A DNA stretch of 64,000 bases from the NCBI GenBank assembly GCA_011319805.1, contig SJRY01000294.1, positions 124,001-188,000 on the forward strand. Direction: 5' to 3'. Below the pieces are notes generated by a model. It was not told the DNA's origin. It made no database searches and saw only the letters and a list, made by a program, of their open reading frames with translations. Positions 13,381-18,854 of the stretch are shown here, in pieces; within the stretch, counting starts at the first letter, position 1, and each line of letters starts with the position of its first letter. This DNA is from Macrocybe gigantea. Taxonomy: Eukaryota; Basidiomycota; Agaricomycetes; Agaricales; Callistosporiaceae. The position numbers and the translations under genes were made by a program.

Positions 13381-15395
13381 ATGCGCGCTGACCTGTCTGT
13401 CGTGTCCTTCCTGTGCGCTGGCCTTCTCGCCGTATTTCTTCCCGCTCGGCGCGTCCGTGGAAGCGTCGTCACACTCGCCATCGTCGCGTGGCTGATCGGT
13501 TGCAACCTTGTCCACGGGATCAATTCGCTCATCTGGAATGGCAACGTCCGCGTCCGCGGTGCTGTGTGGTGCGACATCAGTGAGTGGTGGTGTTGCATTG
13601 CCGTTGCGCTGTGTTGAAACAGACTGATGTGTGATTTTTTTTCAAGCGACGAAACTGCTGTTGGGTGCCATTGTGGCGCTTCCGGGAGCATGCGTCTGCA
13701 TGTCGCGCAGATTGGAGCTCGTCGCATCGACGCGAAAGCTGGCAGTGGATCCCACGAGCCAACGCAATCGCATATTATTCGACCTCACGCTCTGCTATGT
13801 TATTCCTTTGGTTTACATGATGCTGCGTACGTTTTCCTTGGCCTTCTTTCTCTCTACGATCGTTTCAACGAATCAGAACATTCAAGATTTCATCGCACAA
13901 GACCACAGGTTTGATCTTGTCCAAGATTTCGGCTGCTTTGCATCGATATACCCTTCAACACCCTCTTTAATGATTATGTGGATACCACCCCTTCTCATCT
14001 GTGGCATCTCATTTCTTTTATCTGGTATGTCCCACCGCATTTTAATCCAGCGCGTATGTTAACATTCTTAATGCTCTAGGATTTGCTATACACAATTCGT
14101 TCCGACACTCTACTGCTGGATTTTCTCATCATTTAGAGACGCGAGCTCCGATCACAACGTCTGTATTTCTCCGTCGTCTGGTGACTTCGCTCGTCGTTAC
14201 AGGAGTCCTGACAATTGTTTGCCTCTTCTCTGTATTTTCTATTTCCTCGTTCCAACGCTGGGGTCCATGGTCTGTCGTGCATGCCCATTTCCGCGATGTC
14301 CACGTCGTGACGTCCTCGGATGAAGCCAGGACTATCCAGTCGGTATGGTGGGGATGAAGGCGGTTTCCATTGCGTACATCATCCTCTCATTCGCCATCGG
14401 TGAGGAAGCAAGGGATTCCTTTAAATGGGTGCGAAACCGCTTGACCCAAGAAGACAACCCACACGACTCAGACCTTTTGCCCTGCCAACGACGTAAGTTG
14501 ATCTACAGGCATTCCCTCCCAGGTTATTCCAACTCATCTCTCAATGTCTTGCAGTACTCGGGATGTGCAGCCACAAGTCGCTCCTCGACATCTGAAGCTC
14601 GTCTGCAAAACCTCGATATGAAATCGGGTTGGGATGATATGCTAGAATCAAAACAATCAAAAGTCTGGTTTCCCTATCCGCAAATCTCCCAGCCCGTCGA
14701 GGTGTACCCCAAGCCCAACATCTACGCCTCCTCCGAGATCGCCTACTGCCGACGAGAAGTTCATAACATCGACCCTAGACTATTTTTCTTCTCCGACAGC
14801 CAAGTCTCTGACTGTGCATCCACCCCTTCCATCTCCTCCGCACGTATATGCGTCTCCCAAGAAGCTACACACAATGTCCCGTTTCCTTCGCCTCCCTCGC
14901 CGCCTCCAGCCGCCCCATTGACCCAGAGCCGTCACTCTTGGATAACACTACTTCACAGCGAAATGGAGACAAAAAGAAGCGCCACGAATCGGGCATATCG
15001 TCGCTTTTCGACGTGGCGTGGCCTCAGCCTCCCGCAACGTCCTCGCCTGCAAGTAGCTCCAAGGCCACCTGCCCAACTCGAACCTGAACTCGGACACCGC
15101 TTCCGTGTCAGACTCGCTTTCGTTCGGCCTCCCCCTATACATTCCCGCCACGCCGCCACACCTCCGCACGCGACCGTTCGATGATGCGAGCGTATCTTTC
15201 CCGCTTCCGGTCTCGGGGCAAGACAGCTGGCCGGAGGAGTCGCCGTTGTCGGCGGCGTCGAGGAAGCAGGTGAGCAAGAAGCCGAGCTTGAAGAGCTTGA
15301 GGAGCACGCGCAGTGGTCGTGAAGATCGTGGCGCGGGATACAGAGGCGAAGTCATCTATATGACGGTCGTAAAAGAGACCGTGGATTCAGTTTGA
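13381..15395 (+). CDS. STE3: STE3-like pheromone receptor 1 (7TM GPCR)
   Basis: Class D fungal GPCR that senses farnesylated pheromones. Exons: 13381..13579, 13647..13826, 13887..14024, 14080..14492, then probable tail exons 14571..14843, 14927..15052 and 15112..15395. Exons 2 and 3 are 180 and 138 nt, the same as in the other three receptors. TM1-2 (VSFLCAGLLAVFLPARRVRG and VTLAIVAWLIGCNLVHGINS), the conserved WCDI before intron 1, TM3-4 (LLLGAIVALPGACVCMSRRL), HFIAQDHRFDLVQDFGC, TM5 (MIMWIPPLLICGISFLLS), TM6 and TM7 are all visible. The frame breaks inside TM7 near 14350, where TGGTGGGGATGA would need one more G. The long Ser/Pro-rich cytoplasmic tail ends VVKETVDSV. As written the protein would lose TM7; I think an assembly drop is more likely than a null allele. 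Confidence 0.8.
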
Positions 15396-15568: not shown

Positions 15569-15584
15569 TAGTCCGGCCGGACTA
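15569..15584. repeat. 16-bp perfect palindrome next to the ribozyme
   Basis: TAGTCCGGCCGGACTA, one base from the hammerhead 3' strand. It could cap the 3' end of the element RNA as a hairpin or mark the element end. Confidence 0.6.
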
Positions 15585-15585
15585 T

Positions 15586-15643
15586 GACGGTTTCGCCCGT
15601 GCGAAGGGGCTCATCAGAGGGCTTAACCGCTGCCCTAACCGTC
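15586..15643 (-). ncRNA. Type III hammerhead self-cleaving ribozyme
   Basis: On the - strand the 58 nt divide exactly into a hammerhead: stem III GACGG, then UU, stem I AGGGC, loop AGCGGUUAA, stem I' GCCCU, core CUGAUGA, stem II GCCC, loop CUUCGCAC, stem II' GGGC, core GAAA, stem III' CCGUC. All conserved core bases are present, the 10.1-11.1 pair is G-C, A15.1 pairs with U16.1, and all stems are fully Watson-Crick. The cleavage triplet is GUU (fits NUH), so the cut is predicted between 15637 and 15636 on the - strand. The ends lie in stem III, which makes it type III. Activity is not tested, but chance assembly of this core and three perfect stems is unlikely. Confidence 0.88.
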
Positions 15644-15950
15644 TGTGCGAATCTTTAAGGTACTCCTAATTTATCCAATGGACGATTGCGCTCGGGCCGC
15701 AGCGGACCGCTGATGAGTCGCGTCCACCAGAGCTAGGTTTCGATGAGGGGGGTCAGCCTCCACTGGGTGGGATGCGCCCTATCCCGCGCCCAACGGACAT
15801 TGAGTGTGAGCGTTTAAGCCCGACACCGACCGACGGCCTGCTTGCACAGGACTTTTGTGCACCAAATTTGTGCGTAGGGCGGCGCGCCCCAAGCAGCACA
15901 GTGTCAGTCGGTCGTCTCCGCAGATAGGGCCGAAAGACGCAAAGTGCTCA

Positions 15951-15974
15951 GTCTTGGGGAGTCGAACCCAAGAC
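15951..15974 (-). promoter_or_regulatory. Pol III B-box-like hairpin
   Basis: On the - strand, 8-bp stem GUCUUGGG/CCCAAGAC with loop UUCGACUC. The embedded word GGTTCGACTCC (15958..15968) matches the tRNA B-box consensus. The stem is longer than the 5-bp T arm of a tRNA and no full tRNA cloverleaf fits, so I read it as a tRNA-derived internal promoter, not a tRNA gene. Confidence 0.5.
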
Positions 15975-17084: not shown

Positions 17085-18854
17085 ATGGCTTATCCCAACT
17101 ATGTCTTTTCCATCTTTGCCTTCCTAGGCTTCCTTCTCTGCTGCATTCCGTTCCCTTGGCACTTGGAAGGTCTGTATATCTTCATAGCCAATTACCATTA
17201 AAGTCGAGCTCAACTCCTTCTCAGCGTGGAACACTGGAACGTGCCTCTACATGGCATGGACAGCGTTGGCCTGCCTGAACCAATTCATCAATTCCATCGT
17301 CTGGAACGGTAACGCTATAAATTGGGCTCCGGTGTGGTGTGATATCTGTGAGTGGCGAAACCGTTCTTCGCTTTTCCCGTGGGAAGTAAATTGAATGCGG
17401 GCGATCTCATTCTTAGCCGCGAGGATTATTGTCGGCACCGCTGTCGCGATTCCTGCCGCTTCGCTCTGCATTAACCGACGGCTCTACCACATTGCTTCTG
17501 TGCGATCAGTCACTGTCACCAAAGCTGAGAAACGGCGGGCAATACTGGTCGATTTGGCTATCGGCCTTGGCTTGCCCATCATGGAGATGATCCTGCGTAT
17601 GTCTGTTACCCTGCCCCTTACCCTGCGGAATGTGCTGACAACATTGCTGCAATAGAATATATCCCTCAAGGACATAGATTCAACATCTTTGAAGATATTG
17701 GCTGCTATCCTTTTACCTACAATACTCCCGTGGGCATTGCCTTGGTTGAGATCCCTCCCGTTCTTATAGGTTGCGTTTCATTTGTCTATTGTGGTACGTC
17801 TGTCGAAATTTTCTGCTTGAAGCCTGGGGCCTCATTATTTCTCATGCAGCCTTGAGCATCCGCGCATTCATTAAATGCAATGCGCAATTCAAGGAGCTAC
17901 TCTCGGCCACAACAACCTCAGCAGCAACCGATACCTTCGCCTCATGTGCCTTGCCAGCATAGAGATGCTCTTCACCGTACCGCTCGGCATCTACTCCATC
18001 TGGGCCAACTCGACGGCCGGGCGGATTTCGCCCTGGAAGGGCTGGGCAGACACCCACTACGGCTTCTCCCGCGTCGATCAGATCCCAGCTATCTTGTGGC
18101 GCTTCAACAAGGAGACGCGCGTCGCGCTCGAGGTCACCCGCTGGTTCGTCGTCATGTGTGCGCTCATATTCTTCGCATTCTTTGGATTTGCGGAGGAGGC
18201 AAGGAAGAACTACCGCTCTGCCGTTCAGTCCGTCGCCAAGCGTGTCGGATATACGACGAGCACGTTCGGCTCTGGCATGTTCAGCTCCACGGGTATGTCC
18301 TACTTTTAAACAGGTGTCCGGAACTGCTTCATCTTACACCTTTCTTAGAACGAAAACCAAGGGGTCGGACATGTCTGGAACTACTGGAAGCATCCCTGTG
18401 TTCGTGCAGAAGCACACGCTCAGGAAAAAGGACTCGCTCGACTCCATCTCCGACATGTCCTTATCATTCAAGGACGTCGGCGGCCTGCTCGATGAGAAGG
18501 AGAAGCCGATCGTCTCAGATATCAACTACGACACCATTTCCTTACCGGATGCGGGAGGTGTGCTTGCGGACTACAAAGTCGAGCCCTACTCGCCCGCACC
18601 GTCTTCCGGTTCATCTTCGTCATCCAGTCTGTCGTCGCCACGCAATGGCTCGCAGACGTCGCTGCCGGAAAGTCGCGGTCACGCGGCCTGACTCGGAATG
18701 CATCGAGATTTCGTCGGTCAGGCGCATGTCCATCATTGGCATTCGGCATTCCGTGTCCGTCCCTGAGCCCGCGTTCAATCGCTCGTCACCGCCGAATCAT
18801 CCCACGGATACCCCCATACCCGCCTACAACAAAAACGCACACGATACTGTCTAA
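17085..18854 (+). CDS. STE3: STE3-like pheromone receptor 2 (7TM GPCR)
   Basis: Exons: 17085..17169, 17225..17347, 17417..17596, 17656..17793, 17850..18292 and 18349..18854. It has the STE3 pattern: NYVFSIFAFLGFLLCCIPFP with PFPWH after TM1, WCDI before the third exon, GHRFNIFEDIGC, TM5 VEIPPVLIGCVSFVYC, SSNRYLRLMCLASIEMLF, the FSRVDQIPAI motif and TM7 FFAFFGFAEEARKNY. It is unusual in having an extra intron inside the first coding exon; exons of 180 and 138 nt match the other receptors. The frame breaks near 17912 (between FKELLS and GHNNLSS), at the donor near 18292, and near 18675; one more G at each gives a continuous protein with a Ser-rich tail. Either three base drops or a dying copy; I favour drops. 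Confidence 0.8.

Follow-up and report, generated by a model that had tools for sequence, protein, structure and literature searches.

A type III hammerhead motif at the 3' end of a short dispersed noncoding element in the mushroom Macrocybe gigantea

We describe a noncoding repeat of Macrocybe gigantea that ends in a type III hammerhead motif and has elementless counterparts within the same genome. The window analysed here is a stretch of 64,000 nucleotides of contig SJRY01000294.1, in which the original prediction had placed a complete hammerhead on the minus strand, inside an element. Every base reported is present, from 15643 to 15586 and in the strand order of a type III ribozyme, and the motif forms the 3' end of a repeat of about 399 bp with sharp borders and seven copies (Table 1). 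Our preferred reading, which we hold to be probable though well short of secure, is that the hammerhead makes up the 3'-terminal module of a mobile element that is noncoding, non-autonomous and about 400 bp long; the element would move as RNA and insert nearly bluntly with a reverse transcriptase supplied in trans, and its RNA would cut itself between 15637 and 15636.

Table 1. Features of the element and its surroundings, in window coordinates
Feature	Positions	Strand	Basis
Whole element, 399 bp; 5' end TCTTGGG at 15973, 3' end GGCC at 15575	15575..15973	-	Seven copies; empty counterpart C170
Eleven-base tail after the ribozyme, ATAGTCCGGCC	15575..15585	-	Alignment of seven copies
Type III hammerhead ribozyme (predicted activity)	15586..15643	-	Sequence, motif scan, RF00008, covariation with C3
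Stem-loop II, GCCC/GGGC, 4 pairs, eight-base loop	15595..15610	-	Sequence, RNAfold
Stem-loop I, AGGGC/GCCCT, 5 bp, nine-base loop	15618..15636	-	Sequence, RNAfold
A-box-like word TAGGGCAGCGG, 1 mismatch	15627..15637	-	Weak: six other words in the window copy match too
Predicted scissile bond, U15637 (position 17) / A15636 (1.1)	15636..15637	-	Inferred from fold
Body segment complementary 12/13 to stem I strand 15619-15631	15809..15821	-	Window and C259 copies
5'-terminal hairpin TCTTGGG...CCCAAGA, with a perfect B-box word inside it at 15958-15968	15952..15973	-	Sequence, copies
STE3-type pheromone receptor gene, with introns, extent approximate	13381..14354	+	PF02076, three pieces: 38.5, 94.7, 22.4 bits
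Second STE3-type receptor gene, approximate, partial	17395..18306	+	PF02076, two pieces: 64, 114.2 bits

Copies of the element, 395-421 bp long, lie on seven contigs with one ribozyme at each locus. A 23-letter ribozyme pattern with up to three mismatches recovered these seven copies and one further locus, C3, and the reversed control recovered none. Pairwise identity among copies is 79.6-98.0%, except for the pair formed by the window and C259, which are identical across 399 aligned columns and therefore point to recent movement. Four of the seven copies have a counterpart that lacks the element (window/C170, C259/C137, C309/C276 and C89/C274); the flanks of C170 match those of the window at 99.6% over 2536 columns on the left and 90.7% over 631 on the right. 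These empty counterparts presumably represent the other haplotype. The C291 copy lies inside a separate dispersed repeat, six members of which were examined; they lack the element and are not alleles of the C291 site. This host repeat was seen at L053, L054, L059, L060, L069 and L070, about 80-87% identical over the flanks used. C205 was rejected as the empty site of C317, since the two have only the left flank in common, and none of the 46 matches listed for C257 is a counterpart (of 69 candidates, 40 were scored). Frames reaching into the element, read from stop to stop, span at most 98 codons; judged from frame lengths, it carries no reverse-transcriptase frame of its own such as defines a Penelope-like element. 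Protein searches gave no match, and an exact 18-mer had none in viral and prokaryotic contigs.

With the element read as TCTTGGG...GGCC, the target duplication is 2 bp in the window and 1 bp in C259, C89 and C291, and C309 shows no match. The largest duplications that can be read are 3 bp in the window, 2 in C259, 5 in C89, 4 in C291 and 2 in C309, the 5- and 4-bp readings arising because the target shares the first letters of the element. As judged from these junctions, insertion is nearly blunt. The 3' end is constant across copies and bears no A-tail, and C317 lacks the first 25 nt. Searches of three of the seven copies for repeats of at least 10 bp found no direct repeats, and hence no LTRs, and no inverted repeats joining both ends. 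SINEs typically duplicate about 5-20 bp of their target and carry a tail that is A-rich or made of repeats. The element is short, noncoding and dispersed like a SINE; its duplications are 0-2 bp at the consistent border (at most 2-5) and it has no such tail.

Within the motif, read on the minus strand, stem III is formed by GACGG/CCGTC together with U16.1 (15638) and A15.1 (15591), U17 stands at 15637, and the core segments CTGATGA and GAAA occupy 15617-15611 and 15594-15591. The cut triplet is GUU, one of the less favoured among hammerheads, and stem-loop I has what we take to be a resemblance to a tRNA D arm. The best RNAfold structure of the 58-mer contains the hammerhead stems and one extra pair; its folding energy is unremarkable, 25 of 200 shuffles being as good. 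A loop-loop pairing GCG/CGC is possible: it is complete in the common ribozyme row and appears as GCA/UGC in C291, whereas C317 and C3 each have a single broken pair out of the three. A second hammerhead built on the plus-strand word CTGATGAGTC (15710-15719) was considered and set aside as coincidence, the full motif being absent and the word occurring only in the window and C259 copies (2/7).

The original prediction also called the element pol III-type, which the sequence supports only in part. A perfect B-box word, GGTTCRANTCC, stands at the 5' end (one of 1500 random sequences has one), in a terminal hairpin retained within three mismatches by six of the seven copies and missing from C317. 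The A-box-like word, by comparison, carries a mismatch and lies at the 3' end, which is the wrong linear order; A precedes B, at a distance of 69 nt, only in a circle or tandem, and a word pair so arranged is also found in 5% of random sequences. A run of four T on the sense strand is absent from six of seven copies, and none of the seven has at its 5' end a canonical tRNA T arm, which was also considered. At C3, exact A-box and B-box words separated by 51 nt lie around the hammerhead fold, an observation for which no chance estimate was made.

We infer cleavage, an RNA intermediate and a helper. Minus-strand RNA of the element would fold into the hammerhead and cut itself at the predicted bond, and the element would move through RNA that a reverse transcriptase acting in trans copies and inserts. 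The RNA route is favoured by the constant 3' end, by the 5' truncation of C317, the one copy to show this, and by the lack of long terminal inverted repeats in the three copies searched. The bases flanking the predicted scissile bond are present in each of the seven DNA copies, so the copied RNA would have been either uncut or religated, and we think an uncut template the likelier of the two. The same observation would suit a retrozyme-like cycle, in which dimeric transcripts are cut to monomers that close into circles, and reverse transcription of a circle, always begun at one internal point, leaves ends 62 nt downstream of the cut. Such a circle would bring the A-box-like and B-box words into promoter order, and plant retrozymes, in the available parts of two accounts, are also type III (PMC7229834, PMC7761336). 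Against this, no dimers or tandems occur at the seven loci, each with its single ribozyme, LTRs were not found in the three copies searched, and the promoter arrangement is one that 5% of random sequences also give. We consider this cycle possible but unlikely.

The ribozyme is the most conserved part of the element: across six copies (C259 was dropped as near-identical to the window copy), 7 of 58 ribozyme columns vary, compared with 2 of 11 in the tail and 106 of 338 in the body (p = 0.0025 for ribozyme versus body). Five of the seven copies share all 58 bases, every core base is intact in all seven, and three copy comparisons show no difference in the ribozyme with bodies differing by 17-20%. 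The seven variable columns are all transitions, and CpG decay could account for the paired changes in C317 and C291. Taken by themselves, the seven copies show no significant covariation (136/500 shuffles), and in C291 two stem pairs are broken and the minimum-energy fold differs.

The diverged locus C3 (L016:3278-3335), a single type III hammerhead with the rest of the element absent, contributes double changes at two stem II pairs, both C-G to A-U, and at two stem III pairs, one G-C to A-U and one A-U to G-C. With C3 added, 58 of 60 cells pair; the covariation score and the count of doubly changed pairs were reached by none of 500 shuffles and the number of pair types by 24 of 500. These fractions are not probabilities, and the test has four distinct rows only. 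A slid-partner control yielded at most one doubly changed pair. The Rfam alignment of C3 covers the same 58 bases (17.6 bits, E 0.27), and model R1, built without C3, scores it at 58.2 bits. C3 reads AAAA for GAAA and has lost the catalytic G12; its ribozyme is probably inactive. The persistence of a fold without G12 is one argument that the hammerhead might fold but not cut, whether as a recognition hairpin, say, or as a relic; the sub-threshold Rfam score (below), the ordinary folding energy and the less favoured triplet point the same way. The intact core of all seven element copies speaks against it, and we rank this reading below the retrozyme-like cycle, as improbable.

Folding of longer RNAs adds a further consideration. 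In the full 399-nt RNA the hammerhead fold lies 5.2 kcal/mol above the best fold; its cost was 4.7-9.2 kcal/mol across four RNAs 149-399 nt long, and 1.2-2.1 kcal/mol across three shorter ones (69-99 nt). In the window and C259 copies, body segment 15707-15724 is complementary at 14 of 18 positions to the ribozyme core (15603-15620), and a second segment is complementary to a strand of stem I (Table 1); the C257 copy, searched with that threshold, showed no such stretches. The complementarity may reflect a self-inhibiting fold or chance, and alternative folding might protect full-length RNA. A viroid-like rod was rejected, the folding energy of the whole element being ordinary (45 of 100 shuffles as good).

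A DNA element, for instance a Helitron-like one, could carry the hammerhead as a passenger, and this would agree with the near absence of target duplication and with a 5' end that starts TC. Helitrons, however, end in CTRR and insert between A and T; here the 3' end is GGCC(G), and A^T is found at one of five target sites. A passenger would, moreover, have no need of a ribozyme conserved above the body. We give this possibility somewhat less credence than the fold without cutting.

The pattern CTGATGA-N16-GAAA occurs once in the window, compared with 0.06 expected (at least once in 6 of 100 shuffles), and the full motif, with core and four-pair stems, also once; a scan of 150 random 64-kb sequences matched in first-order composition found none. 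The original prediction had named the lack of a covariance-model hit above threshold as counting against it, and at the curated cut-off the window indeed has none: RF00008 gives 21.1 bits, in a match out of register (15632-15585), against a gathering score of 48.5. The identical 58-mer on C257 reaches 40 bits (E 5.1e-6 across the 41-Mb genome) and the C317 copy 42 bits (E 1.4e-6 genome-wide), the best of the copies scored, all of which lie below the gathering score. The genome scan scored 67 of 9057 candidates, and its counts are lower bounds. Because 7 of the 14 control genomes also yield sub-cut-off matches (E <= 10), weak RF00008 scores carry no meaning; the case for the predicted hammerhead is made by the strong E-values together with the copies and C3. 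Chance resemblance, which the low window score and the control matches might suggest, can be dismissed as extremely improbable in the face of the random-sequence scan, these E-values and the conservation and covariation described above.

A candidate for the helper was found in the same genome. Of the 18 RF00008 matches of the genome scan, seven are the element copies and the other 11 are copies of a single further repeat; taken one by one, these 11 matches are weak (18.1-22.9 bits). This repeat, seen on 11 contigs (L020, L022-L030 and L035), has a type I hammerhead arrangement, with stem I GGATGTC/GACATCC pairing 7/7 in 11 of 11 copies and GAAA kept in 10 (L035 has AAAA). Its minimum-energy fold is not a hammerhead, and RF00163 returned no match genome-wide, though RF00008 detects the family. 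Ten of the 11 copies end in ACACCCC-TAA, presumably complementary to the fungal telomere; copies start at different points and are partly tandem. A reverse-transcriptase frame is seen in L087 and L023, and C153 contains an open frame of 591 codons holding QLRGLAMGVADSP and YGRYIDD, which we take to be reverse-transcriptase motifs. A fragment of the C153 frame has 228 homologues at E <= 0.001; the 120 listed include several with PF00078 or PF26215 and proteins named from Armillaria, Phellinidium, Sanghuangporus, Mycena and Lyophyllum, names that by themselves make an agaricomycete host likely. The fragment matched no Pfam model, had two sub-threshold matches in NCBIfam and hit one antibody chain in PDB (E 0.17).

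In placing a hammerhead at the 3' end before telomere-complementary letters, this repeat is like the telomere-attached Penelope-like elements described in the available part of PMC6431247. A reverse-transcriptase frame followed by a type I hammerhead makes this telomere-ending Penelope-like element a candidate to supply the enzyme in trans; we assume it to be endonuclease-less, part of the frame having been read. An RVT_1 genome search, with 150 of 744 candidates scored, was uninformative on the helper, and no sequence common to the element and the proposed helper was seen. Hammerhead mutants of a Penelope-like element still inserted in vitro (PMC11167929), which warns against assuming that cleavage is needed. 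We offer only as a doubtful conjecture that the element could represent a new class of ribozyme retroelement in fungi: of SINE size, it would parasitise a Penelope-like element that bears a hammerhead and lacks an endonuclease, would be recognised via its 3' hammerhead and insert nearly bluntly, and would have its ribozyme superimposed on, and perhaps evolved from, a tRNA-like pol III promoter. Should the overlap of fold and tRNA-like promoter in C3 be real, it would bear on hammerhead origins.

Among known systems, the type III hammerhead of RF00008 shares core, stems and strand order with the element, whose own motif differs in its score, its GUU triplet and an activity that is predicted. 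Plant LTR retrozymes are likewise noncoding, non-autonomous and type III, but they are about 700 bp long with a 4-bp duplication and two LTRs, each with a type III hammerhead (PMC7229834, in part), whereas the element has about 400 bp, a single ribozyme, a different duplication and no LTRs found. Animal non-LTR retrozymes resemble it in being noncoding, about 170-400 nt and without LTRs; theirs are tandem units with type I hammerheads, according to the same partial source, whereas the element is a lone unit with a type III hammerhead. Penelope-like elements and terminons also have a hammerhead near the 3' end, and one with a reverse transcriptase occurs in this genome, but they are type I, whereas the element is type III and has no recognised protein-coding frame and no telomeric tail.

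The original prediction knew of no described hammerhead in a short pol III-type element of an agaricomycete, and this needs qualification. Five Hammerhead_3 loci are tabulated for Pleurotus ostreatus, so that type III was already on record in an agaricomycete genome; no element is described in the available part of that account (PMC5040776). In Yarrowia lipolytica, hammerheads lie in interspersed repeats (PMC3088659, in part). By description the two are like the element, the one as type III in an agaricomycete and the other as fungal dispersed repeats; those accounts, as far as available, give no borders, empty sites or mechanism, whereas the element has borders and empty sites. An agaricomycete study removed hammerhead transcripts by Rfam (PMC8893723, in part). 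We found no description of the roughly 400-bp element in the accessible portions of the open-licence literature, including PMC7229834, PMC7761336, PMC6155905, PMC10886601 and PMC6431247, and term look-ups in PMC10085705 and PMC7227769 gave nothing relevant. In the sources available in part, most mobile elements driven by hammerheads come from plants, where they are type III and have LTRs, or from animals, where they are type I and tandem. That range would be widened by a mushroom-type fungus with a recently active element that is a single unit and has a type III hammerhead at its 3' end, and filled and empty versions in one genome could provide a small system for asking what role the ribozyme has in mobility.

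The genomic setting agrees with the mating-type region originally proposed. The element lies between two STE3-type pheromone receptor genes, for which PF02076 was matched in five of five pieces, four of them above the Pfam cut-off of 29.2 bits. Both genes are on the plus strand, and the ribozyme is therefore antisense to both; an insertion at this place could mark mating-type haplotypes.
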